From Dugong dugon (Eukaryota; Chordata; Mammalia; Sirenia; Dugongidae): 64,000 bases of DNA. Shown one piece after another: positions 21,630 to 55,612 of this stretch. The notes below the pieces were generated by a model. That model was not told where the DNA came from. It worked only from the letters and a program-made list of their open reading frames with translations, and searched no databases. The position numbers and the translations under genes are program-made. Numbering within the stretch: the first letter of the stretch is position 1; every line of letters starts with the position of its first letter. The DNA lies in the NCBI GenBank assembly GCA_030035585.1, contig CM057464.1:80894919-80958918 (forward strand), written 5' to 3'.

Positions 21630-21889
21630 CTATAAATCCTGGGACACACTTGCTGAAGAAATATCCACTTAAATATATCCTGGTTGCTCCATTTTTGCAG
21701 GGCACGGCTTTACAATCTTCACTGTCTATTCCACAGATATTTCCTTCATATCTTTGGAGACAGCTATAGTTGCAATTGTGCAAATGCATCAGGCAGAGGC
21801 CATGCACCAATGTATTCTGGTTTCCTGACATTGTATTCCTTACATCGATAATACAGAAGCTGTCAATGTAACCAAGAAGACAACTGCAT
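21630..21889 (-). CDS. EGF-repeat gene, exon 3 of 3 in the window (candidate EYS)
   Basis: A 260-nt exon. The acceptor is a strong pyrimidine tract ending GTTTCAG at 21890. The best donor is ATAG|GCAAGT at 21630/21629, a GC-type donor matching the GC-AG consensus. The first base completes an Arg codon begun in exon 2, followed by CSCLLGYIDSFC, which closes a perfect six-cysteine EGF module. The next module (around NCNYSC and LQRYEGNIC) keeps only part of its cysteines, and the last (DCKAVPCKNGAT then FFSKCVPGFI) has Arg and Ser where the third and fourth cysteines belong. There are no stops across about 86 codons. The frame and splice signals look preserved while the disulfide pattern does not. 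Exit phase is 1. An AfroSINE in the opposite orientation lies about 115 bp upstream of the acceptor. Confidence 0.75.
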
Positions 21890-22002
21890 CTGAAACGTGC
21901 AAAAACAAACATAAATAATTAGCCATAGTGTTTAAGTCACATATTTACTTGAATATATATAAAAGAATGTTTAATAATGATGGTTGTGTGGTGTATTTAA
22001 AT

Positions 22003-22160
22003 AACGTGGCACAGTAGTTATGAACTATAGCTGCTAACCAAAAGGCTGGCAGTTTGAATCCACCAGCTGCTCCTTGGAAACCCTGTGGGGCAGTTCTACC
22101 CTGTCCTATAGGGTCGCTGTGACTCAGAATTGACTCGACAGCAACAGGTTTGGTTTTGGT
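22003..22160 (+). mobile_element. AfroSINE
   Basis: Head partly lost (starts ACGTGGCACAGTAGTTATGA), then CTGCTAACCAAAAGGCTGGC, CTCCTTGGAAACCCTGTGGG, CCTATAGGGTCGCTGTGACT and GACAGCAACAGGTTTGG. It sits in the intron just upstream of the exon 3 acceptor, in opposite orientation to the gene. Confidence 0.9.
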
Positions 22161-22239
22161 ATCCTCACAGAAAGTGTCTGTTCTTGGCCAAACTTAATTT
22201 CGCCCATGGAGAAGAAAGGTGGGTGAAATGAAGAACTTT

Positions 22240-22445
22240 GGTGACAAACAGACCTAGACACAAATGTCAAATGCAAGTTCTGACACTTAATTGCTGTTAT
22301 CTACAGTAGTATCCTTAACTCTGCTGAGGCGAAATGGCAGGATGTGGGTGTGTATAATTATATAACATCTCAAGATTTTTGTGAAAATATGCAGTAATGT
22401 TTGAAACCTAATTCCATGCCTAATAGGTCTTCAATAAATAATGTT
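22240..22445 (+). mobile_element. MIR SINE remnant
   Basis: Order of blocks fits MIR: CAGACCTAGACACAAATGTC, AAGTTCTGACACTTAATTGC (like the TCTGCCACTTACTAGC core), CTTAACTCTGCTGAGGCGAA, and the end CCTAATAGGTCTTCAATAAA. Old and diverged. Confidence 0.6.
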
Positions 22446-22659
22446 ATATTGATAGTATTCATTCACTTATGTGTTTACTTATTCTATATCTATCTATCTA
22501 TCTATATATAGAGACAAGAGACATGAATTTTCAATGTAACTAGCATTGTCCTAAATGAAGAGATACTAAGGTTTAACAAGTCTATGGTTTTACCTCAAAA
22601 GAGGCAACTTCTTCTAACAAAACCATTAATAGGTTTTATTACTACTAGTGTTTGAGTAT

Positions 22660-22820
22660 CTCTGTCCTTCAGAAGCTGAGAATGTAAGTGTTCTGAAGGC
22701 AGGAAAAAGGCTTTTTCAGTTTGAATCCATATCACCTAACATAGTGCCTAGCATATGGAGAGAACTAAAAAAAAATATTCAATGTAAAATTATTGAATAT
22801 ATAAATGAAGTACTGAAAAG
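22660..22820 (+). mobile_element. L2 (LINE2) 3' end remnant
   Basis: GAAGGCAGGAAAAAGGCTTT then ACATAGTGCCTAGCATATGG and a tail resembling ATTCAATGTAAAATTATTGA (the AATAAATATTTGTTGAATGA-type L2 end). Diverged. Confidence 0.5.
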
Positions 22821-23091
22821 ATGCTTAGACTCTATGGGAGGTGTAGATGATAAGTAATAGAGCGTAATCATCTCTGCGGTTGAGATAGTACAGATCTGAG
22901 AATTCTTAGGAGAGAAAATTAGTCTTTTAGGGTGGAGTGGGAGTGTCATGACATATTCTGTACATATTGGATTAATCAAACTCAACTTGTCAAACAATGC
23001 AATTATTATTCTAAAATATAGCTGAATGACGATGCCAGCTAATCTTTAGAATATTTAAAGAGAAATCTATAATCTATAGGGGAAATTTACC

Positions 23092-23541
23092 AAGTCCTGG
23101 TGGCACAATGGTTAAGGGCTTGGTTGCCACCAGTGGCTCTGTGGGAGAAAGACCTGGTAATCTACTCCTGTAAAGATTACAGCCTAGGAAACCCTATGGA
23201 GCAGTTCTACTCTGTTATATATAGTGTCACTATGGTTAAGTGCTGGGCTGCTAACCAAAAGAAAGTTTGGCTCTTCAAACCCATCAGACCCTCTGAGTGA
23301 GAAAGATGTGGCAGTCTGCTTTCATAAAGATTACAGCCTTGGAAACCCTATGGGCAGTTCTACTCTGTCACATAGGGTCAGTATGAGTCAGAATAGACTG
23401 CACAGCAGTGGGTTTTTTATTAGTCGGAATCTACTCAACAGCATACAACAACAACATAGAGAAAATTTAAAGCTATACTCTGCTCTATAGGGTGGCTATG
23501 AGTCGGAGTCGACTTGACGGCAACAGGTTTTTTTTTTTTTT
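23092..23541 (+). mobile_element. Cluster of partial and fused AfroSINE copies
   Basis: Copy one runs 23092-23235 (AAGTCCTGGTGGCACAATGG to TATATAGTGTCACTATGG) and is fused to a second copy (GGTTAAGTGCTGGGCTGCTA, to about 23415). A short tail ending in CAACAACAAC follows at 23421-23456, and another 3' tail at 23475-23541 ends in about 19 T. Copies one and two carry the longer variant of the SINE with an extra block (GAGAAAGATGTGGCAGTCTG type). The chain indicates SINE-into-SINE insertions or recombination. Confidence 0.8.
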
Positions 23542-23544
23542 TTT

Positions 23545-25045
23545 CCCCACTTTACCAAGCATGATGTCTTTCTTCAGGGACTGGTCTTTCTTGATAATAT
23601 GTCTAAAGTATGTAAGACAAAGTCTCTCCATTGTCTCTTCCAGGGAGCACTCTGGCTGTACTTCTTCCAAGGTATACGTGGTATATTCAATATTCTTCAC
23701 CAACACCATAATTCTAAGGCATCAGTTCTTCTTCAGTCTTCCTTATTCATTTTCCAGCTTTCACTTGAATATGAGGTAATTGAAAATACCATGGCTTGGC
23801 TCAGGCATACCTTAGTCCCCAGAGTGATACCTTTGCTTTCCAGCATTTTAAAGAGGGCTTTTGCAGCAGATTTGCCCAATTCAATACATTGATTTTTTGA
23901 CTGCTGCTTACTTGGGTGTTGATTATGGATCCAAGTAAAATGAAATCCTTGACAACTTCAATCTTTTCTCTGTTTATCATAAAGTTGCTTATTGGTCCAG
24001 TTGTGAGGATTTTTGTTTTGTTTGTGTTGAGGTTAATCCATATTAAAGACTGTAGTCTTCAAACTTCATCAGTAAGTGCTACAAGTCCTCTTTGCTTACA
24101 AGCAAGCAAAGTTGTGTCATTTGCATATCACAGGTTGTTAATGAGTCTTCCTCTAAACCTGATGCCCTGTTCTTCATACAGTCCAGCTTCTCGGATTATT
24201 TGCTCAGCATACATATTGAATAAGCATGGTGAAAAGATACAACCTTGACACACACCTTTTCTAATTTTAAACCATGCAATATTCCCTTGTTCTGCTCAAA
24301 TGAATGTCTCTTGGTCTATGTCGTTTCCTCATGAGCACAATTACGTGTTCTGGAATTGGCGTTCTTCTCAATATTATCCATAATTTGTTATGGTCCACAC
24401 ATTCGAATTTCTTTGCATAGTGTCAGTGAAACACAGGTAAACATCTTTCTGGTATTCTCTGCTTTCAGACAAGATCCATCTGGCATCAGCAATGATATCC
24501 CTCATTTTATATCCTCTTCAGAATCTAGCTTGAAATTTCTGGCAATGCTTTGCCGATGTACTGCTGCAACCACTTTTGAATTATTTTCTGCAAAATTTTA
24601 CTTGCTTGTGATATTAATAATATTGTCTGGTAATTTCCACATTCTGTTGGATCACCTTTCTTTGGAATGGGCACAATCAACTCTTCCAGTTGACTGGCCA
24701 GGTAACTGTCTTCCAAATTTCTTGGTATAGACAAGTGAGCTCTTCCATTGCTGTATCTGTTCGTTGAAAAATCTGAATCGGTATTCCGTCAATTCCTGGA
24801 GCCTTGTTTTTCGCCATTCCCTACAGTGCATCTTGGACTTCTTCCTCAATATCATTGGTTTTTTATCTTATGCTACCTCCTGAAATGGTTGAACACGAAC
24901 CAACTCTTTTTGGTACAGAGACTTCCATCTTCTTCTGATGCTTCTTGCATTGTTCAATATTTTTTAGAACCCTTCAATATTGCAACTCGAGGCTTGAATT
25001 TTTTTCTTCAGTTCTTTCAGTTACTCATTTGTATAAATAGTGGAA
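23545..25045 (-). mobile_element. RTE LINE, reverse-transcriptase half, antisense, decayed
   Basis: On the minus strand it encodes broken RTE ORF: LEELIVPIPKKGDPTECGNY followed by YQTILLISQASKILQKII (RT region near 24525-24734), and further downstream the AKTTIL-like segments and LEEVQPECSLEETMERL near 23485-23709. Plus-strand open frames between 23492 and 25050 are its shadows. The 3' tail typical of RTE is absent; the element abuts the T-rich end of the AfroSINE cluster instead. Pieces of the same segment recur at 33155-33428, 34690-35650 and 49695-51112. Confidence 0.8.
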
Positions 25046-25840
25046 ATTAATATAAGAAAGATATTGATACTTCTATTTTCTTTGCACCATCCGCTATCGT
25101 CTTATCCACTCCAAAACACCCTACAACAAAAGCTAACCAAACAAAAACAGTCATCCATTGACTTCTGAAGGCCATTGACTGGAAGTTTATTGGAATTATC
25201 TTAGGGAAGAGGTCTGGCTTCCGAGATAATGCTGGATGAGCAAATTTTTCTGGATGATAAGCTCTCTATCTGTAAACTCATTCCATGTTTCAATTTTTAT
25301 TTATTTTTAATTTATATATTCATCACATAACAGTAAATATTCTTATAACAACATAAGCATTCTCTTGACTTACTGTTTTCAACTCAAATCCTGCTAGTTA
25401 CATGCAAATACTTTAAAATATTGACCTATATTTTCCTACATTTATATCAATATATCACATAATATGCTTCACAATTTTTTTTGTTAGGCATTATCCATTG
25501 AGTTTTTCCTATGAAAAATAATTTTTAAATTCCTGACACTGCTTCCCACTCCAGCACACACATACTAAGCCCTCTTTCCATTGTCCCAATATAATTAGGT
25601 AAAATTTTTGTTAAATTTATATTCATTTTACATGATTACAACTATATCAGTATCATTTACAACTGAAACAAATAATATATATTTATATTTCTTGATCTAT
25701 ATTTTGTTTTCCCTGCAGTTAAAATCATCTTATTATTTTGTTTGCTTATTATGCCATGTACCTACCCATAGTTATCCCTCTATGTCCCTCAAAATGCAAA
25801 ATACATGAGACAAACTTTCAGCTTCATTTTTTTCCCCTTA
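25046..25840. other. AT-rich intronic DNA, no feature recognised
   Basis: No exon, and no repeat recognised with confidence. Confidence 0.35.
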
Positions 25841-25845
25841 GAGAC

Positions 25846-26202
25846 AGGTAGATTCACAGGCTTGCTGCACAGGGTATTCTGGACTGTCTCTTCATCCTTA
25901 ACCTGGTGATTTTCACTGGCTACCTTCTGGATTGGCTCATCAGTTTTCCAAAGCTCTTATCTTATTTCTTGGTTTACTTAGGTGAAGCATATTATCCTCA
26001 AATGTGCACCCTCTCCTCACTTATCTACCTGGTTAGGTTTCAAAGACCAGATCATTATGCAAAAATGAAGGATGACCACATCAGATCACCAAATGAAGGA
26101 AAACTGCATCATTACATAACTGACAAATTACATCAGTACTTAACTGCCAAACCACTGAGAATCATGGCCCAGCCAAGTTGACACATAACCTTAACCATCA
26201 CA
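25846..26202 (-). mobile_element. Old interspersed repeat, probably LTR-type, antisense
   Basis: The end GCCAAGTTGACACATAACCT then TAACCATCACA (26173-26202) is the reverse complement of TGATGGTTAAGGTTATGTGTCAAC, the same terminal block that begins the element at 60581. Family name not resolved. Confidence 0.5.
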
Positions 26203-26849
26203 ACCAGTGCTAATCTCACCTTTCACCTTGGCATTCATTATTGCCAGACATACTTTGTTAACGTGCAAAATAGTAGGATAGTAGATTTTTTACTATTGCT
26301 GTAAATGGAAAATGTCAGATAACCAGATAGTCGATAAGCGAGAAGTAGGTGTATTACTGAGAAAGGCTGCTTGAGAAGTAAAAATTTTCAGACATTACAG
26401 ATATGAAAATACACTTTTATACCTTTCTGTTATTCCTTTGGGGAATACTAATTTTAAATTTAAGCATTTTTCAGAAGTTTTACTAGGCTTTTTTCTCTTG
26501 TCTTTATTTCCTCTGAGATTCCTCCACTGCTCTTAATTTTGGTATCTGATTGTGAAGTTTGAGGATTCCCTTGAATATTTAGTTATCTTTTACTCTCTAC
26601 TCATATTGAAAAAATTGGTAACAAAAAAATTGGTTTGAAATTATGTGTATTCATTTGTGAGTGGAGTTTTCTAGTTGTAGACTTTCTTACAAAGGGATTG
26701 GACAGAGATCTGAATCATTTGTTTCGGGACCCTCCAACTCACAATATTTGTAACTGTTTTTGCTTCGGCCAGTCAGCCTGAGGGATGTGTGGGAGTGGTC
26801 TGGCACCAGCATTTTTGGAGTAGAGAATTTTTCTTTTATTTTTTTAGAA

Positions 26850-29150
26850 TTACTCTCTTCTAGAAATTATACAGCGTAGATTTAATAAATCAAATACAGT
26901 TAATTTTGAAATGGAGAAATTTCTTTTTCTACCATTGATTAGAAATGTTATTTTAAATTACAATAAATTACTACAGTGATATGAATCTAATTGCAGATTC
27001 TGTTTTATATTCAATTGACAAATGTATTTGCTCTTCAATGTGAAAATATTTGGATTATTAACACTTAAAATATTTTTTAATATCTTGTAATACAGTCGTT
27101 TTCTTTGTTCTTCTTTTTTGGTTTATTTTTGTTTTATATTTTATTTTCCACATGTTTAGATTTTAAAAAAAGTAAGTTTTACTTTGGTTTATATGAAATT
27201 TCATAGATTTTATACATTAATTTAGGAAAAATTTCCAAATTGATACTACTAAGCCTTTCTACCCAAGAAAACGCTATGTATTTACAATTATCTGATCATC
27301 TTGTTAAAGCCTTTTTTAATTTTTAATGTTATCTTCTCCTAAGTGTTTTATACTTTTAAAAATATTTATTCATAAGCATCTTATCTTTTTGACTGCTATT
27401 ATAAATTAGATCTTGTCTTCCATTTTATTGTCTAACTGACATTTGTTATTGGAAATCTATACATTTCTTATATTGATTTTGTAATACATTACCATATTGA
27501 ATTATTTTCTTATTTCTAATAGTAATTTTGTCAACTTTCTTAGTTTTCTAGATTTACGATCATATCATCTGCAAATCATAATAACCAGTCTCTTTCTATT
27601 CAATTTAAACCCTAATTTTTTACATGTATATAGTCTTAAATACTTCCAGGAACCTAGATTCATGGTAGGTATCAATGATCTTAATGCAGATGCTACCAGT
27701 CTGTGAAAATAAAGCCATGTATGGACTTTGACTTTTATATATACAGATAACCTAATAGCTATTATTAACATGCAGAATGAACCTTGAATTTTTGTCAAGT
27801 GTCCTTTAGTTATCTACTGAAATGTTACTGTGACTTTTCTCCTTTGACTTATTAATGCTGTGCTAATAAGCTTCTAATACTGAAACACTTTTACTCTGGA
27901 TGAAGCCACTCAGTCATGCTGTGTTATTCTATTAATATACAGCTAGACTTCATTTCTAATATTTTATTTAAGATTTTTACATCTATCTCCATAAGTGAGA
28001 TTGATCTATGGATTTCTATTTCTATGCTTTGTCAAATTTTAATACAGATGTCATGTTAGCTTTGTAAAAAGGTAATGAAAGTTTCCTTCTTTTTCTTTTC
28101 ACACTCTGGAATAGCTTTTTACAGAATGTTAAAAACTGGTCATTTTCAGCGTGAATCAGATTGTACCTGACCTAGAGTTTAAAACATTTGTCAACATTTA
28201 AAATGTTTTTACAAAGAAATGTTGATTTCCACTTTCACTTAAAGAATTGAGAAATCAGGTCACTCTGGGTCCACAGCTCCAGTATCAACAATTAGCTGTA
28301 TTTGAATAATGGGTTTTCCCTTTAGAGGGTCTACTCAGATTTGATATCTATCCATCACTTTCTTGGACTAGAGCAGTACTGTTTTGTGACATTCATCTAT
28401 CTTATACACAATTACAAATGATAGATTAAGGTCAATGCATACTTCAAGAAAAAAATCAATATTGTCATGCGTTTATTGGCCTAATCTGCATATGGATTTG
28501 TGTTTAAAAGTGATTATTTAAAATGGTATTGAAGTTAACTCTTCAATCTCCATTTTTATAGAGTCACCTTTTGACATGCTTTTCAATTTCTAACATATTT
28601 TCCATTGCTCATTTTTGACTTTCTATCTTATGTTTAGTCAATTTCACAAAAGTACATTTTTCCATAGAAAATCATATGTTTCATACACATTTATATATTA
28701 GTCTACACAGTATCTTGTAAACTATGCTCTTGTGGTTCTCTTTTTGTTTTCAAAATTAGATTACTTAAATATTTTTATATGCTCTAATTATGTGAGTTTA
28801 TCCTTCAACTCCTTTTGCTGATGATTCTAGCTAGTGATTAACTTGATTTTAACAATGACTTAGGCTTAGATAAACCCATTGTTTTAGGTCATCTAGATTG
28901 TATCATATTTCAACATTTTTTCAATATGTATTTCAATATTTTTTCTTACATTTCCTGCTTTTTTATGAATGTGGTTTAGTTTCATAAAAATCTATATCAA
29001 GTATATTGTCATTTTGTTCATAGTAGATTTTTACCCTTTCTCTACACACTACAGTTGTATTTACACCTTCTGTCATGAATTCAACATTGAGATGGCAATT
29101 ACGCAGTCCTAGTCTTGTTTTAATTAGTATCGCACTAATACTTTTTTTAT
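26850..29150 (-). mobile_element. Ancient L1 (ORF2 region), antisense, diverged
   Basis: T-rich sequence with the antisense L1 ORF2 signature CGATCATATCATCTGCAAAT (27558-27577) and, downstream, ATTTAAGATTTTTACATCTA then AGTGAGATTGATCTATGGAT and ATGTTAGCTTTGTAAAAAGG (27968-28072), in the order seen in old L1 copies. No open coding frame remains. Outer boundaries are approximate. Confidence 0.6.
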
Positions 29151-29290
29151 TCTATTGCTTTTAACCTTTCTAAGTCAAATTGTTTTGAGTTCTCTTGTAA
29201 ACAACATACAGTTTAGTTTTGTTTTTCAATTGATATTTGAAGTATTTTCAATAGGTGTTAATTGCAGATGTGATTGTGTATATATGCATG

Positions 29291-29294
<4 letters not shown>

Positions 29295-29345
<51 letters not shown>
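29295..29345. repeat. (TG)n microsatellite
   Basis: About 25 uninterrupted TG units directly upstream of an AfroSINE variant. It creates a run of Cys-Val codons in one frame, which is not a real protein. Confidence 0.95.
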
Positions 29346-29347
<2 letters not shown>

Positions 29348-29356
29348 AGATAGAGA

Positions 29357-34677: not shown

Positions 34678-34689
34678 TATCCTGAAGTA

Positions 34690-35650
34690 TCCAGTACGTA
34701 GATCAAGAGGCAGTCATTCAAAAAGAACAAGGGGATACTCCGTGGTTTAAAATCAGGAAAGGTGCATGTCAGGGTTGTATCCTTTCACAGTACTTATTCA
34801 ACCTGTATACTGAGCAAATAATCAAAGAAAGCGGACTATATGAAGAAGAACAAGGTATCAGGATTGGAGGAAGATTCATTAACAACCAGCATTATGCAGA
34901 TGACCCAACCTTGCTTGCTGAAAATGAAGAGGTTTTGAAGCACTTACTGATGAAGATCAAAAACTATAGCCCTCAGTATGGATTGCACCTCAACATAAAG
35001 AAAACAAAAATCTTCACAACTGGACCAATGAACAACATCATGATAAACAGAGAAAAGATTGAAGTTGTCAAGGATTTCATTTTACTTGGATCCACAATCA
35101 ACGCCCATAGCAGCAGAAGTCAAGAAATCAGACAATGTATTGCACTGGGCAAATCTGCTGCAAAAGACCTCTTTAAAGTGTTGAAAAGCAAAGATATCAT
35201 TTTGAGGACTAAGGTATGCCTGACTCAAGGCATGGTATTTTTAATTGCCTCATATTCATGCAAAAGCTGGACAACGAATAAAGAAGGCCGAAGAAGAATT
35301 GATGCCTTAGAATAATGATGTTGGTGAAGAATATTGAATATACCATGGACTGTCTTGGAAGAAGTATAGCCAGACTGCTCCTCAGAAAAGAGGATGGAGA
35401 GATTCTGTCTTACATACTTTGGACATGTTAGCAGAAGGAACCAGTCCCTTGAGAAGGACATCATGCCTGTTAAAGTGGAAGATCAGCAAAAAAGAGGAAG
35501 ACCCTCAAAGTGATGGATTGATAGACTGGTTGCAACAATGGCTCAAGTATATCAATGATTGTGAAGATGGCCTAGGACCTGGCAGTGTTTTGGTCTGTCG
35601 TACATAGTGTGGCTATGTGTTGGAAGAGACTTAATGGCACTTAACAACAA
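34690..35650 (+). mobile_element. 5'-truncated RTE LINE with 12-bp TSD
   Basis: Flanked by the exact 12-bp repeat TATCCTGAAGTA at 34678-34689 and 35651-35662. It encodes the RT catalytic motif YADD (34893-34904) and downstream HLNIKKTKIFTTGPMNN, KDFILLGSTINAHSSRSQEI and KSAAKDLFKVLKSKD in one frame of 134 codons (34911-35315). The rest is frameshifted. It ends with the RTE tail GGCACTTAACAACAA. The short duplicated target and CAA-rich end are typical of RTE-clade LINEs. Confidence 0.9.
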
Positions 35651-35662
35651 TATCCTGAAGTA

Positions 35663-36920: not shown

Positions 36921-36927
36921 TTTTTTC

Positions 36928-37550: not shown

Positions 37551-38955
37551 TTCTTTCCTGGAGGTGGGGCCAAAATGGCAGAGTAGTTAGATGCTTCCAG
37601 TGGACCCTTTTACAACAAAGACCTGAAAAAACAAGTGATTCAATTATATATGGCAATCTGGGAGCCCTGAACATCAAAGGCAGACTTGAGGAACTGGACT
37701 GAGTGGCAGGGGGAGGGAGAGATGGTTCAGAAGCAATGAGGAGTTGCCAGACTTGAACTGGAGAGAGCCTGAGCCCTTCAGGCTTGATCACCGCAGGGGT
37801 GAGAGGTGAGGTAGGTAGGCATCGGTGCTTGGGAGGTGTATTCTGCATCAGGAAACACCCAGTCACTGAGAGTCTACTTGGCCCTGCAGAACCAGTGAGA
37901 AGCAGCCCTCGATGAAAGATAAGTACTTGCGTACAGCTTACCTCATGGATCAAAAACACCCCCCTTAGGGAAAAAACTTAATCCCATTTACCTCCCCGCT
38001 TCCTGCTTTGCACTGGGTCCTGGACCAGCTTCAGCAATTGTGGAGTCCCCCAGGCCAGAGCCATTCTCCCTAACTTGGAGAGTGAGCAAATTAACAAATG
38101 GGAGAAAATAAGCTGCCAGCTGCCCTAAGCCAGGAGCTCAGGGTAGGCACAGCTCCTTTGCCTAGGCACAGGCATAAGGGATCCATGGACTTTGAGTGCC
38201 TTTCCCCCTGCATAGACTTGTGTGGGCCCATCTCAACAATGTAGGCCCTCATTACCGCAGTATGACAAGGTATATCCCAGAACTCTAACTTCAACTGTTT
38301 CAGCTGTGAAGTGGCAGGTTCGTGAAATTTGACGCTGTTCTGCCCATTAAGCAGGGTCTTCACCTACCCACATCAGGGGCTTGAGGAGTGGTGGCTCCAC
38401 CCAGACCACCTAGCCACCTGTGATAGGGGCCCATGAAAAAAAGTGCCCCCCAGTTCTTACAGCCAACAGCATTAGGTGCTCATAGTCCAGCTACAAAATC
38501 CTTCTACCTACACGCTCTAGGGAACAGGGACACATCTTCCTCCTGGACACACGGAGGCGGCCAACAACCCCCTGCCTTGCTCAGAGTGTGTCCCCCTGCT
38601 GCAGCCAGATGCCTGTGCCTACACGAATCACCCATGTCTGTTTAGGACTGTAAGTGAGAGCCTATACCACACACTTGGTAGCTATCTATCTGGGCACCTG
38701 AGCTGAATCCATACAGAAGGAGCAGGCAGATTCCTGAGCTCACATACCTAGTAACAGATCTAACCACCTGGTGACAGGACATTAGAGATTCAAAGGTGCC
38801 AATAATCAAACTAGCTCATACGATCAGCCTATTTGGGCATATCAGAACAAAACAAAAACTAGGACACAGTAAGCAAACATAAAATACATAAATATGATAA
38901 CTTATTGATGTCTCGGAGACAATATTCAATATCAAATCACATAAAGAGGTAGTCC

Positions 38956-39870
38956 ATGATGGCTTCAGCAAGTTCCCAAAATAAAGAATCAAGAAATTTT
39001 CCAGAGGAGGACAATTTCTTGGAACTACTGGAGGCAGAATACAAAAGATTTATATACAGAACTCTTCAAGAAATTAAGAAGGAAATTAAGCAAAACGCAG
39101 AACACGCAATACAGGAAATTAAAGACATTAGAGAAGAGCATAATGACAAATTTAACAGGCTGCAAGAATCCACAGAGAGACAGCAATCAGGAATCCAGAA
39201 GATTAACAATAAAATTTCAGAGTTAGACAACTCACTAGAAAGTCCTAGGAGTAGAATTGATGCAACGGAAGTCAGAATTAGTGAGACTGAAGATAAAGCA
39301 CTTGACACCAGTTTATTTGAGGAAAAATCAGATAAAAGGATTTAAAAAAATGAAGAAACCCTAAGAATTATCTGGGACTCTATCAAGAAGAATAACCTAT
39401 GAGTGATTGGAGCACCAGAACAGGGAGGGATAAAAGAAAATACAGAGAGAATTGTTGAAGACTTGTTGGCAGAAAACTTCCCTGATATCGTGAAAGATGA
39501 TAAGATATCTATTCAAGGTGTTCACTGAAACCCACATAAGGTAGATCCCAAAAGAAAGTCACCAAGACATATTATAATCAAACTTGCCAAAACCAAAGAA
39601 AAAGAGAATTTTAACAGCAGCTAAGGATAAATGAAAAGTCATCTACAAAGGGGAGTCAACAAGAATAAGCTTGGTCTACTCAGCAGAAACCATGCAGGCA
39701 AGAAGGCGATGGGATGACATATATAAAGCCTTGAAGGAAAAAATAAATAAAACTGCCAGCCAAGAATTATATATCCAGCAAAACTGTCTCTCAAATATGA
39801 TGGTGAAATTGGGGCATTTCCAGATAAACGGAAGTTTTGGTAATTTGCAAAAACCAAACTAAAATTACAA
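38956..39870 (+). pseudogene. L1 ORF1 of the full-length copy, disrupted
   Basis: Starts MMASASSQNKESRNFPEEDN and continues through a long coiled coil (residues about 25-125, heptads with Leu, Ile, Glu and Lys). TAA at 39343-39345 ends the first frame at 129 codons, where the RNA-binding part should begin. The following sequence still encodes recognisable ORF1 blocks (a 'yesterday' stop in NL-stop-VIG near 39400, SAETMQARRRWDDIYKALKE near 39680) to about 39870. The full protein would be about 300 residues. ORF1p coats L1 RNA in the cytoplasm; this one could yield only a trimerisation segment. Confidence 0.85.
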
Positions 39871-40383
39871 GAAATACTGAAGAGAATCATCTGGTTAGAA
39901 AATCAGTAACATCAAATAATAATCCAAGACTAGAACACAGGACAAAGCAAACAGATATCAACCCAGAAAGGAAGTCACAAAAGTAAATCAAAACTAAAAC
40001 ACTGAAAATAGGGAAACAGATGTCAATATGTAAAAGATGACAACGACAAAACCAAAAAGAGGGACTTAAAAAATGTAGACATAGATTTTTCATATGGAGA
40101 GAAAGTCAAGGCAAAGTAAACAAATAAAAGACTTTTATAAACTTAGAAATATAGGAGTAAATGCTAATCAACCACAAAGGAAACTAACAATCCTCTAAGT
40201 CAAAATAAAAAAAAACTAGAAAAATATACTTAGCAAACACAAAACAACAATAAAAAAGACGAAAAGAAAATATAAACAAAAAAATGACTCAGCACAAAAA
40301 ATTAAGTGGAACAAAGAAACTGTGAACAACACACAAAAAAAGACATCAAAATAACAGCACTAAACTAGAACCTATCAGTAACT

Positions 40384-43300
40384 ATGCTTAATGTAAAAGG
40401 ACTAAATGCACCAATAAGGAGACAGAGAGTGACAGATTGGATTAAAAAAATGATCCTTTTATATGCTGCCTGCAAGAGACACACCTTAGACTTAAAAACC
40501 CAAACAAACTAAAACTCAAAGGATGGAAAAAAATATATCAAGCAAACAACACTCAGAAAAGAGCCGGAGTACCAATATTAATCTCTGAAAAAATAGTCGT
40601 TAAAGTAAAATCCACCACAAAGGATAAGGAAGGACACTATATAATGATTAAAGGGTCAATACACCAGGAGGACATAACTATAATAAATATTTACACAACC
40701 AATGACAGGGCTCCAAGATACAAAAAACAAAGTCTAACAGCACTGAAAAGAGAGATAGACAGTTCCACAATAGTAACAGGAGACTTCAACACACCCTTCC
40801 GGTGAAGGACAGAACATCCAGAAATAAGCTCAACAAAGACATGGAAGAGCTAAATGATACAATCAACCAACTTGCTCTCATAGACATAAATCGAACTCTG
40901 CACCCAACAGCAGCCAAGTATACTTTCTTTTCCAATGCACATGGAACATTCTCCAGAAAGAGCACATATTAGCCCATAAAGCAAGCCTTAACAAAATCCA
41001 AAACATTGAAATATTACAAAGCATCTTTTCTGACTATAAAGTCATAAAACTAGAAATTAACAACAGAAAAAGTAAAGAAAAAAATCAAACAAATCGAAAC
41101 TAAACAATACTTTGCTCAAAAACTACTGGGTTATAGAAGAAATTAAGGATGGAATAAAAAAATTCATAGACTCAAATGAGAATGAAAACACATCCTACCA
41201 GAACCTTTGGGACACAGCAAAAGCAGTGCTCAGAAGTCAGTTTACAGCAATAATTGCACACATACAAAAAAAAAGAAAGGGCCATAATCAAAACATTAAC
41301 CCTACAACTGGAACAAGTAGAAAGAGAGCAGCAAAAGAAGCCCCCAGGCGCCAGAAGAAAGCAAAATGGTAAGAATTAGAGCAGAATTAAATGAAATAGA
41401 GAATAGAAAATCAATTGAAAGAGTTAAGAAGACCATAAGCTGGTTCTTTGAAAAGAGCAACAAAATTGATAATCCATTGGCCAAACTGACAAAAGAAAAA
41501 CAGGAGAGGAAGCAGATAACCCATATAAGAAATGAGACGGGTTATATCACAACAGACCAAACTGAAATTAAAAGAATCATAACAGAATACTATGAAAAAC
41601 TGTACTCTTAACAAATTTGAAAACCTAGAGGAAATGGACAAATTTCGAGAAACTCACTACCTACCTAAACTAACACAAACAGACATAGGACAACTAAATA
41701 AACCCATAACAAAAGAAGAGACTGAAAAGGCAATTAAAAAACTCCGAAAAAAAAAGCCCTGGCCCAGATGGCTTCACTGGAGAATTCTCCCAAACTTTCA
41801 AAGAGTTAACACCACTACTACTAAAGGTATTTCAGAGCATAGAAAAGGATTGAATACTCCCAAACTCATTCTATGAAGCCAGCATAACCCTGATATCAAA
41901 ACCAGGTAAAGACATCACAAAAAAAAAAAAAAAAGAAAATTATAGACCTATATCCCTCATGAACATTGACACAAAAATCCTCAACAAAATTCTAGCCAAT
42001 AGAATTCAGCAACATATCAAAAAAATAATTCACCAGGATCAAGTGGGATTTATACCAGACACGCAGGATGGTTCAACTTTACAAAAACAATCAATGTAAT
42101 CCATCACATCAATAAAACAAAAGACAAGACCCACATGATCTTATCAATCAATTCAGAAAAGGCATTTGACAAAGTCCAACACCCATTCATGATAAAAACT
42201 CTCAACAAAATAGGAAAAGAAGGGAAATTCCTCAGTATAATTAAGGGCATTTATACAAAGCCAACAGCCAACATCATCCTAAATGGAGAAACTTTGAAAA
42301 CATTCCCTTTGAGAACGGGAACCAGACAAGGATGCTGTTTATCACTACTCTTATTCAGTATTGTGCTGGAGGTCTTAGCCAGAGCATTTAGGCTAGAAAA
42401 AGAAATAAAGGGCATCCATATTGGTAGGGAAGAGTATCAGAGTATCTCTATTTGCAGATTACATGATTTTATACACAGAAAACCCCAAAGAATCCACAAG
42501 AAAACTACTGGAACTAATAGAAGATTTCAGCAAAGTGTCAGGATACAAGGTAAACATACAAAAATCAGTTGGATTCCTTTACACCAACAAAAAGAACCTT
42601 GAAGAGGAAATCACCAAATCAATACCATTTACAATAGCCCCAAAGAAGATACAATACTCAGGAATAAACCTAACCAAAGATGTAACAGACATATAAAAGG
42701 AAAACTATAAGACACTACTGCAAGAAACCAAAAGAGACCTGCATAATTGGAAAAACATACCTTGCTCATGGATAGGAAGAGTCAACATTGTGAAAATGTC
42801 AATTCTACCCAAAGCAATCTACAGATACAATGCAATCCCAATTCAAATTCCACCAGCATTTTTTAATGAGATGGAGAAGCAAATCACCAACTTCATATGG
42901 AAAGGGAAGAGGCCTAGAATAAGCAAAGGATTACTCAAGAAGAACAAAGTGGGAGGCCACATACTACCTGATTTTCGAAACTATTACACCGCCATGGTAG
43001 TGAAAACAGCCTGGTAGTGTACAACAACAGATACATAGACAAATGGAACAGAATTGCAATCCAGACATAAATTCATCCACCTATGAGCAGCTGATATTTG
43101 ACAAAGGCCCGAAGTCCATTAATTGGGTAAAAGACAGTCTCTTTAACAAATGGTGCTGGCATAACCAGATATCTACAAGCAAAAAACTGAAACAAGTCCC
43201 ATACCTTACCACATGCACAAAAACTAACTCAAAATGGATCAAAGAGTTAAATATAAAATCGAAAATGATAAAAATAATGGAAGAAAAAATAGAGACAATG

Positions 43301-44120
43301 CTAGGAACCCTAATTCATGGCATAAACACAATACAAACCATAAGTATCAATGCACAAGCACTAGAAGGAAGAAGAAAAATGCGAGTTCCTAACAATCAAA
43401 CACTTACGCTCATCAAAAGACTTCACCAAAAGAGTAAAAAGATAACCTACGGACTGGGAAAAAAATTTTGGCTATGACAATTCTGATCCGCATCTAATCT
43501 CTAAAATCTGCAAAATACTGCAAAACCTCAACAACAAAAGACAAATAACCCAGTTAAAAAATGGGCAAAGGATATGAACAGGCACTTCACCAAAGAAGAT
43601 ATTCAGGCAGCTAACAGACACATCAAGAAATGCTCATGATCATTGGCCATTAGAGAAATGCAGATCAAAACTACAATGAGATATCATCTCACACCAACAA
43701 GGCTGGTATTATTCCAAGAAACACAAAATAATAAATGCTAGAGAGGTTGTGGAGAGACTAGAACACTTATACATTGTTGGTGGGAATGTAAAATGGTACA
43801 ACCACTTTGGAAATCGATTTGGTGCTTCCTTAAAAAGCTAGAAACAGAAGTACCATACGATCCAGCTATCCCACTCCTTGGAATATATCCTATAGAAATA
43901 AGAGACGTCACACAAATAGATATGTGCACACCCTTGTTCATTGCCGCACTGTTCACAATAGCAAAAAGATGGAAACAACCTAGGTGCCCATCAATGGACG
44001 AATGACTAAACAAATTATGGTATATCCACACGATGGAATACTACTCAATGATAAAGAACTACGATGAAGCCGTAAAATATCTTATAACATGCAGGAAGCT
44101 GGAGGTCATTATTTCTGAGT
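40384..44120 (+). pseudogene. L1 ORF2 (endonuclease and reverse transcriptase), disrupted
   Basis: Order of domains is preserved but spread over several frames. The endonuclease part lies at 40384-41090 (GDFNTP-type block near 40786). Then come SWFFEKSNKIDNPLAKL (41366-41611 frame), the RT fingers ([17 protein letters not shown] near 41960), [16 protein letters not shown] (42135 on), GTRQGCCLS, and the catalytic segment [14 protein letters not shown] at about 42445. The consensus FADD is FADY here: the second catalytic Asp is Tyr (TAC, 42460-42462). The C-terminal region includes PLLGIYPIEIRDVTQIDM and FIAALFTIAKRWKQPRCP (43793-44005). Frameshifts occur near 41360, 41590, 42420, 43020 and 43480. 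Confidence 0.9.
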
Positions 44121-47100: not shown

Positions 47101-47127
47101 CAATTTTCCAGAACCTATATAGCTATG

Positions 47128-47744: not shown

Positions 47745-47754
47745 AGCTAAAACC

Positions 47755-48420
47755 AGACAATTTATATAAACACATGAAATGATGTTCAACAGTATTCACA
47801 AAAAAATATAAAAGCAAATGAATACTTAACTAATACCACTTTCACCTACATGGACAAAGATTCAAAAGCTTACACTTAGACTATGTCCCTGAGAATATTA
47901 AGGAAAGAAGACACTCTCACATATTAGTGAAAATTATAGAGCAATTTGGTGATATATTTCCAAATTTTAAAATTATTACATATTTTGTCCCAATTATTCT
48001 ATTTCTGTAAATTTACTTTTCAGATACATTTATTCAGATGTGAGATTATGTATGTACAAAATTAAAAAAATCTGCAGTATAAACAGTGGAAAAATCTTTT
48101 CTTATCAATTACTTATCAATGATACAATGATATGCCATACAGCTATTAATAAAATGAGGCAGCTCTATATGTACAGATATGGATTTTTCTCCAGAAATTC
48201 AAGAAACAGAGCAGTGTGTATAAAATTCTACCATTTTGCAAAATAAATTTTAAATAAACTCAGTATTACATTATCAGTAGAAATATACAAACACAAAAGT
48301 TATTCAACTTCTTTCTCACTGGAGAAATAAAGGAATTAGAAACAAGAGCAGATGGTAGATTTACTTTTCACTCTATATCCTTTTACATCTTTTAAATTTC
48401 TTACTAAGTAGCCTTTTTCA
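47755..48420 (+). mobile_element. Ancient L1 fragment
   Basis: Texture and block order of the ORF2 end and 3' UTR of old L1: ATGATGTTCAACAGTATTCA, AGCAAATGAATACTTAACTA with ATACCACTTTCACCTACATG, and ATGAGGCAGCTCTATATGTA. No open frame. It ends shortly before exon 2. Confidence 0.5.
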
Positions 48421-48612
48421 AAACACATATATATCAAATATATATATGTTATGTATATATCTACATAACATATAGCATACATATCTCAACAATTTTAAAC
48501 AAAGAAAGATTGTTATTATAACATATTATAAAGAAGTTAATTATGATTTATCAGTATAATTCAATTTTTTTGATAAATAGGTGATATTCTTAGCTCAAAC
48601 AGTGATAAATAC

Positions 48613-48779
48613 CTGGGTCCATTACTTTCCTCTTTACAAACGGTTTTATGTTGACATCCACTTTCTTTACAATCAGTTGTATTTTCCACATACATTTTTC
48701 CAGACCACCTGGGAATACATATACATTGATATCCTCGACTGTGTTCATTGGTCAAACATCTGTGTGCATTTGTACATGT
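48613..48779 (-). CDS. EGF-repeat gene, exon 2 of 3 in the window (candidate EYS)
   Basis: A 167-nt exon with acceptor TTTTTATAG at 48788-48780 and donor CCCAG|GTATTT at 48613/48612. It enters in phase 0 and leaves two bases for exon 3. It encodes 55 residues: TCTNAHRC, GYQCIC, then PRWSGKM, a linker ENTTD containing an N-glycosylation sequon (NTT), and the first half of the next EGF (DCKESGCQHKTVC). The eighth residue after the fifth cysteine of the first module should be cysteine, but is Tyr (TAT, minus-strand codon 48692-48690), a one-base change from TGT. The second module is regular and is completed by exon 3. The reading frame is open throughout. The gene product would be a secreted extracellular protein. 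Confidence 0.8.
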
Positions 48780-49380
48780 CTATAAAAATAAGAAATAAGA
48801 ATATTGTAAATCCCCATCACATGCAATGTTACAATTGTTTCTTTGTTTGCATTTCATGTTTTCCTTTATGGATTAAATTCATGCATTTCTTTACAAGGGT
48901 AAAAATGAATTCATTTTTAAATTATGTTAAAATAATTTAAAAATCATGTTCAGATTTTATAGTAGAAATATATAAATTGTCAAAAGATAAACAGGTAAAG
49001 TTCTACTATACAGTTGTTTTTAAAAATGTATAAAATTGATCAAAATTTAATAGTTTTCTACTAAGTTAACTAAAGTAGAGAGAGAGAGATTAGATACACA
49101 AAATGAAAGAGAGAGAGATGATAGACGATAGAAGATAGAGGATAGATAGCTAGATGGCAGAAAGGCTTTGTATGAATAAATGATAATGTGCCATCGTACT
49201 AGGACTAAATTAACTTAAATCTCAGTAACTGAAGTTCAGAAGTTCAAGAGGAGACACAGAGTAAGAGGGAGAGGAAAAGCAAGAGAGCTAGAATAAGAAA
49301 AAAAGACAACAGGCTAGCATTTAGATCTGAAATCCGTAGCTAGATAACCTTCACCTACTTACATGCCCCATACATTTCAG

Positions 49381-49415
<35 letters not shown>

Positions 49416-49690
49416 CTCTGGTGACACAATGGTTAAGAGCTACGGCTGCTAACCAAAAGGCTGGCAGTTCATTGGCAGTTTGAATCCACCAGTCACTCCT
49501 TGGAAACCCTATGGGGCATTTCTACTCTGTCGTATATGCTCACTCTGACCTATATGGTCGCTATGAGTTGGAATCAACTCGATGGCAATGGGTATATATA
49601 TATATATATATGTATATGTATATACATATATATATATATATCTCCATTCATCTATCTGTCTGTCTATACATACATATACATATATGTTTC
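49381..49690 (+). mobile_element. AfroSINE embedded in TA/GA microsatellites
   Basis: (TA)n at 49381-49400 and (GA)n to 49415 lead into the SINE (AGCTCTGGTGACACAATGGT, 49414-49592), followed by a TA-rich tract with TCTATCTGTCTGTC repeats to 49690. Within the SINE a GGCAGTT-containing stretch is duplicated (CTGGCAGTTCATTGGCAGTT). The microsatellites look grown from SINE and LINE tails. Confidence 0.8.
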
Positions 49691-49694
49691 AACA

Positions 49695-51112
49695 AAGGGA
49701 TGTAATGCTAGAGATGCTCACTCATCTATACCAAGAAATTTGGAAGACAGCTGACTGGCCAACCAACTGGAAGAGATTCACATTTGTGCCCATTCCAAAG
49801 AAAGATGATCTAACAAATGCAGAGATTATCAAACAATATCATTAATATCACATGCAAGCAAAATTTGTTGAAGATAATTCAAAAGCATATGCAGCAGTAC
49901 ATTACAGAGTACTGCCAGAAATTCAAGCCAGATTCAGAAGAGGATGTGGAAGGAGGGATAACATTGCTGATATCAGATGAATCTTAGCTGAAAGCAGAGA
50001 ATACCAGAAAGATGTTTATCTGTGTTTTATTGACTATGCAAAGGCATTCAACTGTGTGAATTATAACAAATTATGGATAATATTTCGAAGAATGGGAATT
50101 ACAGAACACTTAATTGTGTTTGTGTGGAACCTGTACATAGTCCAAAAGGCAGCCATTTGAACAGAGCAAGGGATAATCTTCATTTAAAATCAAGAAAGGT
50201 GTGCATCAGGATTGCATCCTTTTACCGAATTTATTCAATCTGTATGCTGAGCAAATAATCCGAGAAGCTGGACTATATGAGGAAGAACGAGGCATCAAGA
50301 TTGGAGGAAGACTCATTTACAAACTGTGATATGCAGATGAAACAACCTTGCTTGCTGAAAGTGAAGAGGACTTGAAGCACTTACTGAAGATCAAAGACCG
50401 CAGCCTTCAATATGGATTAGACCTTAACATAAAGAAAACAAAAATCTTCACAACTAGATTAATAAGCAGCATCATAATACATGGAGAAAGTATTGAAGTT
50501 GTCAAGGATTTCATTTTACTTGGATCCACAATTAATGCCCTTGGAAGCAGAAGTCAAGAAATCAAATGAGGTAGTGCACTGGGCAAATCTTCTGCAACAG
50601 ACCTCTTTAAAGTGTTAAAAAGCAAATATGTCACTTTGAGGACTAAGGTGCACCTAACCCAAGCCATGGTATTCAGTCACGTCATATGCACACAAAAGCT
50701 GAACAATGAATAAGGAAAACCAAAGAAAAACTAATGCCTTTGAATTATGGTGTTGGCCAAGAATATTGAATTTACCATGGACTGCCATAAGAACGAACAA
50801 ATCTGTCCTGAAAGAAGTACAGCCAGAATGCTCCTTTGAAGCAAGGATAGAGAGATTTTGTCTCACACACTTTGGACATGTTATTAGGAGCGACTAGTCC
50901 CTGGAGAAGGATATCATGCTTGGTAAAGTAGAGGGTCAGTGAAAGTGATGAAGACCCTCAATGAGATGGATTGACAGAGTGGCTGCAACAATGGGCTCAA
51001 GAATAACAAGGATTGTGAGGATGGTGCAGGACAGAGCAGTGTTTCGTTCTGTCATACATAGGGTCGCTATGAGTCTGAACTGACTTGACAGCACCTAAGA
51101 ACATAACAACAA
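49695..51112 (+). mobile_element. RTE LINE copy, 5'-truncated, decayed
   Basis: Runs from the RT region (IYQEIWKTADWPTNWKRF near 49725, PIPKKDDLTNAEIIKQYH) to the 3' tail GACTTGACAGCACCTAAGAA then CATAACAACAA. The catalytic YADD reads YADE (TATGCAGATGAA, 50330-50341), and a stop precedes it, so the enzyme is dead. It also encodes DLNIKKTKIFTTRLISS and KDFILLGSTINALGSRSQEI (50348-50569). A possible short target duplication is TTTCAACAAA/TTTCAATAAA (weak). Confidence 0.9.
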
Positions 51113-51519
51113 TCATTTCAATAAATACCTTGTTTCTCTACAAATTATTTTATAATTTTCATATTACACTAGTGTGTAGGGTCACTTAGCATAGTGTCTT
51201 TTTGGAAAGAAACTTTGTCAGACCTAATGCCAAATATTTCACCATTTTCTTTTCTCTTGTTAAAGAAATAGATACGGGAAGTGACTTCTGTAATAAGAGT
51301 GGGCAACTATTCTTTTTCATAATATGTGGAAGCCTGGATTATTAGAAACATAGTCTTGGCTAAATAAAAATGTATCAATTTATAAATTATATCTGTATGA
51401 ATTTCAGTCCCAATTTACACCATTTTTGATGTGGTCAAAAACTCTGAAGTAGGTAGAGCTTGGTAAAGGTCTTTCAGATCCCAATTTTTAGTGTTCCTTT
51501 GTCTCTTTTATTTTGTTTC
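51113..51519. other. Intronic DNA, no feature recognised
   Basis: AT-rich, no repeat or exon recognised. Confidence 0.35.
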
Positions 51520-51537
51520 AAAAGTTCTTCCCCCTAA

Positions 51538-51913
51538 TCTGGTGATAGGGAACCCAGGGTTGAGTAACGATATTGTTGATGTGTTGTGAGATTGTTAACC
51601 ATTGTCATAGGGCAACATTTGTTGTGACTGTTAAATGAGAAACTATTTTGTTCTGTAAGCCTTCATCTTAAGTGAGAATAACAGCACAATTGAAAGAGCG
51701 TAGTCAATGTCACTGAACTGTGCATGTAGACATTTTTGAAATGGTGTATCTTTAGCTATATGTATTTTCACCAAAAAAAAGAAAAAGATTGAGAAGTTAG
51801 AGGGTTGACACGTTGTGGGGTTGTTAACCAATGTCATAAAACAATACGTGTACTACTGTTTCATGAGAAACTATTTGTTCTGTAAGCCTTCACCTGAAGT
51901 ACAATAAAAAAAA
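51538..51913 (+). mobile_element. L1 3' fragment with duplicated terminal module and TSD
   Basis: Two terminal modules (about 51570-51675 and 51800-51910) flank a shortened spacer. The flanking repeat AAAAGTTCTTCCCCC-TA (51520-51536) recurs as AAAAGTTCCTCCCCCTTA (51914-51931). The same layout as at 6010-6532 and at the end of the L1 at 7752-12179, but the spacer lacks roughly 100 bp. Confidence 0.85.
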
Positions 51914-51931
51914 AAAAGTTCCTCCCCCTTA

Positions 51932-52440
51932 GTAACTTATGATAATATAATTGCATAACTTGTGTGTAGTAGTGTTATAGAAAACAAGATAAACACATTC
52001 ACATTTATGTGTTTCCCTTACAATAGTGTTTGGACTTAAGAGGATCTCAGAGATAGGGGCACTGTTTAAATCACGCATCAAAAATAAATAAGTAAACACT
52101 TTTGGAATTTCCATCTTTGATGATAAAATTGTAATAAAACGAATGTCTTGTCCCCATATTAAAAAAAAAAAATACTGAGAAAAAAAAATAATAACTTACT
52201 ATTTGCTCCATGAAATCCTTAGCCCTGAAGGTAAGACTGAATCAACTAAAATAAGTTATTTACCAAGATTAACAGCTTGCTGATCAAGACTCTCTTTAAG
52301 ATTCTCATTAGTTGTGCCCACCAGAGTTTATTTGTAAACTCTGACCAATCCATACCAGCTCTCCCATGCCTTAATAACCTCATAAATATCTTCTCATGAC
52401 TTCTGTCTTCTGAAACACTGAGACTCAAATGTTGTGGTTT
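51932..52440. other. Intronic DNA, no feature recognised
   Basis: No exon or clear repeat. Short A-runs near 52160-52190. Confidence 0.35.
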
Positions 52441-52637
52441 GCTGTTGAATTGATTTGCCACTCATAGTGACCCCATGTGATATAGTAGAACTGCCCCATA
52501 GAGTTTTTTTGGCTGTAATCTTTTTAGAAGCAGATTGCCAGGGTTTTCTCCTTCAGAGCCTCTGGGTGGGTTCGAACCACCAACCTTTCTTTTTGGCTGG
52601 ATCCCCAGTGCTTAACCATTGTATGACCAGGGCTCCT
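52441..52637 (-). mobile_element. AfroSINE
   Basis: Plus-strand order GCTGTTGAATTGATTTGCCA, CTCATAGTGACCCCATGTGA, GAACTGCCCCATAGAG, GAGCCTCTGGGTGGGTTCGA, ACCACCAACCTTTC and CCATTGTATGACCAGGGCTC is a complete reversed SINE. No clear target duplication. Confidence 0.85.
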
Positions 52638-54125
52638 TAAGATTCTATTAAGGTGTTGTTTTCCTTTATTTCAGAAGATCTAGAATAACCAGTTTTTTGT
52701 TTGTTTGTTCTTCTTGATAAACATAGTTGTCTGGTGGTATTTTGGGAGTCATCAGTGAACAAACCCAGTGTTTCATAGAGATCCAGTTAGGATGCCATCA
52801 CTACTAAGGCTCAGGACCCTGAAGTCCAAACAGTGTACTATCCTGAGACTGTTAGATACTCTTCTCTCCAATTATAACAGTGATGTAGGTGTCACATCAA
52901 GCTTGAATTCCAGTTTATTTTTATCAAATTCCCAAAGGCAAAGTTCATTTTCTCTCTTAGAAATAAGACTACATTTTAGGAATCCCTTGATTATGTGATA
53001 CAGTTTCAACACTCTGTCCATCATCATTGCTTCCTCTGCTTAATCTATAAGAAGACGTCTATTGGGAGAAGACAAGCGTAGGCCTCATAACTTCATTACC
53101 CAGCTTGCGTTAATGAGTGATGAGTTCAGATGATTATATCAGTCAGGTATTTATGGAACAAAATTTTCTTTGAGTCACCTTTTCAAAATGTTGTAGACAT
53201 TTTTTATTAGGCTCCCAATTGCGATTGACTAGTCTTCAGCAGATTCTGAGGACATGACAGTATACAAGAACTGACACAAGTGTTCATGGAGTCCTCTCAG
53301 TCTCTTAGGCCCTTTACAACACAAACTCTTCCTCCATAATTTAACTTATGTGCATATCTCTCTAATTGGTAGAATTTCTCCAAGGACAATTTGAAATGGC
53401 AGGGGCCACTATGGGGAAATTTTGACATAAACAAGACTGTTCATTTGACAGCTGCATAATAACGCAAAGGAGAAAACCCTCATGAGGAGATTCTCTGTTA
53501 TTGTGTGTCTAATAGAGACATTATGTAATGCACAAAAACACCCCCTTTCATCTTCATACTTCTGGGATTAATAAGCATTAGATTTTTAATTATATGGCTC
53601 TATAGAATTGCCAAGCATATGATTTACTGTTGAAACTATCCCATATAACTTATTCTCATTTGTGTGCATGTGTGTGTGAAATGTTTTTTTTTTTTTTTTT
53701 GCATTTAAGCATACAACATTCTTTACAGAGTGAAGATAGTCATTACTTCATATCTGCTAAAAGCTAGGTCCCCTTCTTCATTTTCACTTTTTCTTCCTCT
53801 TTTTTGTTTGGACAACCTTTGAAATTAACTGAACATAAATAATTATTTGAACATTCTGGAACTACTGATTATATAAATAGACAAAAATTTACAAGGGAAA
53901 AAAAATTGAATAAACCATGCTTCTTTTGTATGTTTTCTCTTGCCAAAACTTTAACAAAGCCAGAAAAACAGTGTACCTGTGGATTATATAGTAGAATTAG
54001 TCTCTTTGATGAAAAGAACATTAGACTTTCAGAGCTTTTGGCAAAAACTCAAAAGTCATAGTTTTATTTTATTTTTTTAATATATGAATACAGAAAAACA
54101 AAACAAATCCATTCGAAATCAGGAG
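52638..54125. other. Intronic DNA, no feature recognised
   Basis: Slightly less AT-rich around 52750-53400, where an old unrecognised repeat is possible. A 18-base T-run at about 53684. No exon-like frame found. Confidence 0.35.
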
Positions 54126-54129
54126 TTTA

Positions 54130-54212
54130 ACTCATTGCTGTTGAGTTAATTCCAATGCATGGTGACTCCATGTGTTACAGAGCAGAACTGCTCCACAGTC
54201 TGTAATAAAAGT
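54130..54212 (-). mobile_element. AfroSINE 3' fragment
   Basis: ACTCATTGCTGTTGAGTTAA, CATGGTGACTCCATGTGTTA and AGCAGAACTGCTCCACAG give the reversed 3' half of the SINE; the head is missing. Confidence 0.7.
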
Positions 54213-55472
54213 TTATTTATATTTAAAATGGCTTATGTAATTTCATAATGAATAATGACACTGTAAAGAAATTATAATGATTTAATTTAACTTAAAAAAT
54301 TCTCTATGTGTTCGCCTAATTTTATCACCACGTATAAAACTTCAGTATCATTTCTCATGATGCAAAAATTATAAATTTTGTACATAGATTTTAAGGATCT
54401 AGTAAGTTGTTTTTGTTTCCTCGAATTATTTAAGATTACAGAAACAAATTACTTTTAAGTAATTGAAATTTTAATATCAGATATATTTTAAAAGAATTTG
54501 ATCTTATGAATTCTTATAATACTACAAATCATAGGTACTTAACATGGTGGTTTAAATTAAATTTTAAATCTGTAGTCAACATTAAGACCTTAAACTGCTA
54601 TTAAATTGAATGAATTAATAATCTTTGGATACTAGAACACTTTTTAAGTAAGGAAAATATACAAAAATTAGACTAGAAATGTGGTTTCAAATTACCTTTT
54701 TCCTTATTGAATGACAATATAATATACAAATATACTTAAATGACATATATTTATGTTTATTTTGCCTAAAATAAAAGTTGTTCAAGTGATATAAAATGTG
54801 TGCTCACTAAAAAACAAAATAGCTGAAAAAGTGTTGGCTTACTGACTTTGTGGTTTCTCTTGACTCTGGAAAAATGTTGGTTACTTTATTTAAACGTGAT
54901 GATTAATATAAAAGGTATAGAGAAACAGTAATATGTACACAAGACAATAAATATATTTTGCTTGTTTGTTTACTATATTAAATTTACAGATTTAATATAA
55001 TATGCAATTTGGCTTAATATGCTGATAAATTTAAAAACACTTTAAAGACCGTGTTAAAAGCTTTAATACAATCATCTATGTATATGTTTACTTATTGTCA
55101 TTGTTTAAATACATACATTTAAAAGTATATTAAGTTTAAATCATGGGTTTATTAATAATAGCAATGTAATAAAGATATATTTGAGGATTTAATCAGTCAG
55201 CAAATTATAACACAAGTAGGACACAAAAAGACTAGAGATAAAATTATTGCTGAAAATCTTTAATGTCTCTGCATATGATAAATATAAAAGTGCATGCAGA
55301 TTTCCAAGTGGAAATACAGAGAGTATTGAAAAACTCTTTATAAAGTTATATTTAAGCTATTTATATCTAGAACATTGAAGAATCTGTAGCTTTAACATCT
55401 CTGGCTTTTTTGAAATCAGACATTTATGAGCTGAAGAGTCAAATGAAAAACCACTACATGAATTTATCTCAC
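54213..55472. other. AT-rich intron between EGF exons, no feature recognised
   Basis: Very AT-rich; no repeat recognised. Together with the sequence to 48780 it forms the 6.7 kb intron between exons 1 and 2. Confidence 0.4.
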
Positions 55473-55612
55473 CTCAATTATTCCTTCACATGGGAACCAA
55501 CATGCATAATTAAGGTCTTCAGCATTTTTCACGTAAACAGGGACTTCATTGCAGTTTGCAATTAGAAAGAAGCAGGCATCAATAACCACCTCACAGTTTT
55601 CACCTTCAAATC
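55473..55612 (-). CDS. EGF-repeat gene, exon 1 of 3 in the window (candidate EYS)
   Basis: A 140-nt exon. The acceptor is a T-rich tract ending in AG at 55614-55613; the donor is GAG|GTGAGA at 55473/55472. It enters in phase 1, with two bases finishing a probable Gly codon, and ends on a full codon. It begins with the end of one EGF domain (GFEGENCEV, last cysteine of the module), then IDAC followed by an irregular cysteine set (IANC, YAC, FPC) that continues into exon 2. There is no stop in frame. The second module lacks a clear third cysteine, so it is either a divergent EGF or degraded. Too short to appear as an ATG-initiated reading frame; found from splice sites and cysteine pattern. What is seen: an open exon and good splice sites. 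What is inferred: gene identity. Confidence 0.7.

Follow-up and report, generated by a model that had tools for sequence, protein, structure and literature searches.

EYS exons in the window

The window, which is the whole stretch of 64,000 nucleotides of the dugong genome that was analysed (C6:80894919-80958918), carries on its minus strand the equivalents of exons 10, 11, and 12 of human EYS, the eyes shut homolog or RP25, an orthologue of Drosophila eyes shut/spacemaker. The exons were identified by translated search against a working version of the human EYS sequence. Exon 10 (55473..55612, minus strand) has 140 nt between an ag acceptor and a gtgaga donor, and matches residues 483-534 of the working human sequence in tblastn with 56% identity (E 3e-10). 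The corresponding values for exon 11 (48613..48779, minus strand, 167 nt, acceptor ag, donor gtattt) are 53% identity to residues 535-589 (E 2e-12), and for exon 12 (21630..21889, minus strand, 260 nt, acceptor ag) 60% identity to residues 587-675 (E 6e-25). Exons 10 and 11 have the lengths of their human counterparts, while exon 12 is longer by one codon. All three acceptors are AG and the donors of exons 10 and 11 are GT, but the donor of exon 12 is GC (TATAG followed by gcaagt, the latter at 21624..21629 on the minus strand), which is a rare but known type of splice site. The three exons join in phase into 189 codons free of stops. Thus, the open run of about 189 codons with intact splice phases that had been described in the original prediction was found again, with the GC donor to be added, and its guess that the gene might be EYS is borne out by the match, order, and phases of the exons compared with the human gene. 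For this comparison, the start of human exon 10 was presumed. The human boundaries at c.1599/1600, c.1766/1767, and c.2023/2024 were derived from published variants (PMC3045506, PMC3281914, PMC3229495). The exons examined follow the order of the working human sequence and keep its boundaries and phases, and all of them are located within about 1.8 Mb of one strand of a single contig. In addition, the order of the domains is that of EYS, since the EGF exons are followed by a last exon with a pair of laminin-G matches, all on the same contig and the minus strand.

The human reference was a working sequence, which was tested against 59 residues picked from published variants. As numbered, 53 of the 59 agree, and the number rises to 58 if five residues that fit after a shift by 21 residues are counted, the human isoforms having 3144 and 3165 aa. 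The single disagreeing residue borders on an exon junction, and a displacement by one position would make it fit. In the segment of interest here, residues 487-675, all of the 12 published residues agree.

Cysteine positions of the EGF modules

The original prediction had named four replacements of canonical cysteines, and at each of these sites the reading of the codon and of its spacing was confirmed. In exon 11, a TAT codon (48690..48692, minus strand) encodes tyrosine at the sixth-cysteine position in the C5-x8-C6 spacing. The human residue is presumably a tyrosine as well (Tyr563 in the working sequence), although a literature search for EYS variants at residues 563 or 667 did not reveal Tyr563 in print. 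One paper from this search was rejected because it deals with RP1, and the text on 1673G in PMC10379620 belongs to WFS1. In the third module, tyrosine is encoded in the NYSC motif at the expected fourth cysteine (TAT, 21766..21768, minus strand), two residues ahead of a cysteine at position 631 (TGT, 21760..21762, minus strand) that takes the fifth position and itself lies eight before C6. This module retains C3, C5, and C6, which is the half of the cysteines that had been claimed, plus an additional cysteine 627 that is common to the window and human. At the NYSC position, human is assumed from the working sequence to keep a cysteine, Cys629. In the last module, arginine (AGG, 21679..21681, minus strand) and serine (AGC, 21652..21654, minus strand) sit at C3 and C4 spacing, respectively. 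The human residues at these two sites are in print, Ser658 in PMC3229495 and Arg667 through the variant Arg667His in PMC7099090. Of the four named losses, three are therefore absent as cysteines in human too (presumably Tyr563, and Ser658 and Arg667), and the one at the NYSC motif is not, if the presumed Cys629 is correct.

Single residues can also be compared with further mammals. An alignment in PMC3281914 has at residue 631 Gly in human, Ser in orangutan, Glu in marmoset, and Cys in both horse and dog, and at residue 662 Arg in the three primates and Ser in horse and dog, while residue 641 is Glu in all five species. The window encodes Cys at 631, Ser at 662, and Gly at 641, and hence at these single residues it resembles horse and dog at the first two positions but differs from them at the third. 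Errors of sequencing or assembly might be invoked for the substitutions, but nothing speaks in favour of this, and we regard it as practically negligible: the reading frame is undamaged, residues 631 and 662 are those of horse and dog, and the contig spans 196 Mb.

The only canonical six-cysteine EGF module in exons 10-12 is split by the junction of exons 11 and 12. It has a spacing of 4-5-8-1-8, its first cysteine being encoded by TGT at 48669..48671 (minus strand), and human is presumed to lack this first cysteine, the residue there being Asp570 in the working sequence. The other modules each lack at least one cysteine. Within the 189 residues of the window, no EGF domain was detected by Pfam above the cut-off (best 15.3 bits compared with a cut-off of 21.5), and the best EGF stretch of the human piece belongs to the portion that exon 13 encodes. 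When the open exon 12 frame was used as query against a protein set, no candidate homologue was obtained. Over the 188 aligned positions of exons 10-12, dugong and human EYS (the working sequence) share 108 identical residues, the exon phases, and the absence of cysteine at 563, 658, and 667. They differ in the length of exon 12 and in the cysteines found in only one of them, which are residues 500, 528, 552, 570, and 631 in the window and residues 539, 608, and 629 in human. The window has 22 cysteines compared to 20 in human, with 17 positions in common.

The remaining gene and the constraint on exons 6-12

The genome searched comprises 3.158 Gb in 196 contigs. Exons 9, 8, 7, and 6 are present upstream of the window. 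Their frames are open, their acceptors are AG, and their donors GT. Exons 6 and 7 are found at 5921-5722 and 4869-4745 of locus L028 and exon 8 at 6464-6350 of locus L025, all on the minus strand. Exons 9, 8, 7, and 6 have 160, 115, 125, and 200 nt, the donor of exon 6 being our choice and located 12 nt past the place matching human. Compared to the human lengths, which we take to be 160, 115, 128, and 194 nt, the frame is thus kept, and exons 6-12 when joined are open throughout. Exons 6, 7, and 8 are open yet lack many of the cysteines present in human. In exon 8, both C5 and C6, which are expected to form one disulfide, have been replaced.

Downstream on the same strand, there are 11 EGF-exon matches between 80.64 and 80.17 Mb with 57-87% identity, none of which contains a stop, eight being judged from the match table alone and three by reading the sequence. 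The apparent stops in three EGF exons were dismissed on reading, as they fall within introns. None of the EGF-exon matches covers a short exon at about human residues 1061-1078, and in the 200 kb below the window there is no EYS match at E 0.1. Exon 25 (65% identical) is open, exon 26 (69% identical) is contained in an open frame of 617 codons, and the gaps in both alignments are in frame. The last exon, at 79.216-79.217 Mb, has a frame of 404 codons with two laminin-G matches, and 320 of the 373 compared residues are identical to human. This frame (locus L030) stops three codons ahead of the human end. A further match of 59 residues to part of exon 26 with 56% identity and one stop is located on another contig (G000:C13:12039844-12040020, minus strand, L033), and is perhaps a copied fragment.

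The check for frameshifts and stops elsewhere in the gene, which the original prediction had proposed, thus came back empty for exons 6-9, the 11 EGF-exon matches, exons 25 and 26, and the last exon. The stops, frameshifts, and broken splice sites that mark a unitary pseudogene were not seen in these exons, the splice sites being read for exons 6-12 and for three EGF exons.

The cysteines, however, are not conserved to the same degree along the gene. In exons 6-12, 30 of 55 cysteine positions are common to dugong and human, 16 being found in human and nine in dugong only, so that human has 46 cysteines in total and dugong 39. Exons 6-9, with 13 of 30 positions shared, have lost more than exons 10-12, with 17 of 25. 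In contrast, 48 of 53 positions are shared in six exons outside this tract (Fisher p 3e-5), these being three EGF exons and exons 25, 26, and the last, which were chosen for the availability of their sequence and not at random, and of which two are poor in cysteines; the sharing is 42 of 44 if exons 25 and 26 are left out. The lower total of dugong in exons 6-12, together with the sharing in exons 6-9, implies that the dugong lineage has lost cysteines that human has kept.

These counts bear on the proposal of relaxed selection or early pseudogenisation in the original prediction. The first part can be retained in the form of a relaxed constraint on the EGF cysteines of this tract, given the contrast of 30/55 and 48/53. 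The second part is not supported, given that three of four losses are found in human too, that exons 10-12 have 22 cysteines compared with 20 in human, and that all examined exons are open. If EYS were in early pseudogenisation in the dugong lineage, the cysteine losses would be its first signs, and the 39 cysteines compared to 46, the 13 of 30 shared positions in exons 6-9, and a last frame ending three codons early could be read in this way, as could the fact that exons 4-5, the short exon, and exons 27-42 lie outside the examined set. We nevertheless consider this very improbable, because no examined exon has an internal stop or frameshift, not even the frame of 617 codons, and because cysteines are shared at 48/53 positions outside the tract.

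Concerning the strength of the constraint, identity to human in exons 10-12 is 0.57, which falls within the 0.47-0.61 of a neutral simulation at 0.3 substitutions per site and exceeds the 0.38-0.52 at 0.4, these distances being assumed values and the human side being the working sequence. In the simulation, 189 codons would stay free of stops with a chance of 0.11 if 0.1 substitutions per site are assumed, and of 0.017 if 0.2 are assumed. Taken together, the tract appears to be loosely constrained in its residues, but the frame has been kept. As far as can be judged from the sequences, the comparison supports relaxed constraint as a regional feature that is partly common to human. We estimate at about 85% the probability that the stretch represents exons 10-12 of an apparently intact EYS orthologue, and that its tract is loosely constrained and has long been so in placental mammals. 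The GC donor of exon 12 and the lower cysteine total of dugong in exons 6-12 count against this reading.

Under this reading, the EGF modules of exons 6-12 would have been under weak constraint for a long time in placental mammals, and different lineages may have lost different cysteines because of it. The tract could then serve as an in-frame extracellular linker that connects the first EGF modules to the well-kept EGF and laminin-G part. More specifically, but with somewhat less than even odds, it may be a cysteine-variable spacer that has been lost or rewired lineage by lineage while strong selection continued to act on the reading frame, on the remaining EGF modules, and on the laminin-G part, the afrotherian having gone beyond human in exons 6-9. 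Alternatively, selection itself might have rewired the tract, with moved cysteines such as Cys 631 with Tyr 629 forming new disulfides and changing its function. The nine cysteines found only in dugong, set against 16 only in human, are in line with such a process, and so is the pairing of some losses like that of C5 and C6 in the exon 8 module. However, the cysteines of exons 10-12 are not kept significantly better than the other residues (17/25 compared to 91/163, one-sided p 0.18), which fits drift, and we regard adaptive rewiring as very improbable.

Possible need for the tract, and other loci

Alleles reported in patients concern the same region of human EYS. The truncating alleles fall in exons 11 (c.1750G>T, PMC8226124) and 12 (c.1971delT, and a deletion of exon 12, PMC3229495), and a further allele is a deletion of exons 9-10 that leaves the reading frame intact (PMC3045506). 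Together these alleles indicate that translation has at the least to pass through the tract. They are in agreement with a tract that has to be present and translated although its EGF folds are incomplete, but do not reveal its role. Should further species show the same regional pattern, a missing EGF cysteine in exons 6-12 of EYS would be weak evidence of damage, and this would also bear on how missense variants in these exons are judged in retinitis pigmentosa.

PMC9355568 and PMC7671337 count EYS among the genes of the eye whose loss is mainly a feature of subterranean mammals. Compared with lineages in which the same gene is reported absent, every examined exon is present and open here. A false lead is thus removed, and on present evidence the dugong should not join the mammals that have lost EYS. 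No title on EYS in elephants or sirenians was among the matches listed, although such a paper may exist, and the partial texts of PMC10671557 and PMC11219930 contain nothing on EYS.

Besides the exons, the window contains in intron 11 of EYS a run of reading frames resembling a broken element (38953-43477, plus strand), presumably a LINE-1. Reverse-transcriptase-like frames are found at 34686-35315 and 50330-50569 on the plus strand and at 23801-24788 on the minus strand, and we assume that these belong to the RTE type known from afrotherians. The occurrence of RTE1_LA in afrotherians is described in PMC5061548. The same paper lists 19 TP53 retrogenes in the African elephant and one each in lesser hedgehog tenrec, rock hyrax, and manatee. 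Elsewhere in the dugong genome, 11 matches to the P53 family were obtained, among them three P53-family loci and one further locus with a stop (G000:C23:29147664-29148022, minus strand). Together with the RTE-like frames, these P53-family loci point to a probable non-elephant afrotherian, for example a hyrax or a sirenian. The locus with the stop resembles the single TP53 retrogene listed for hyrax and manatee.
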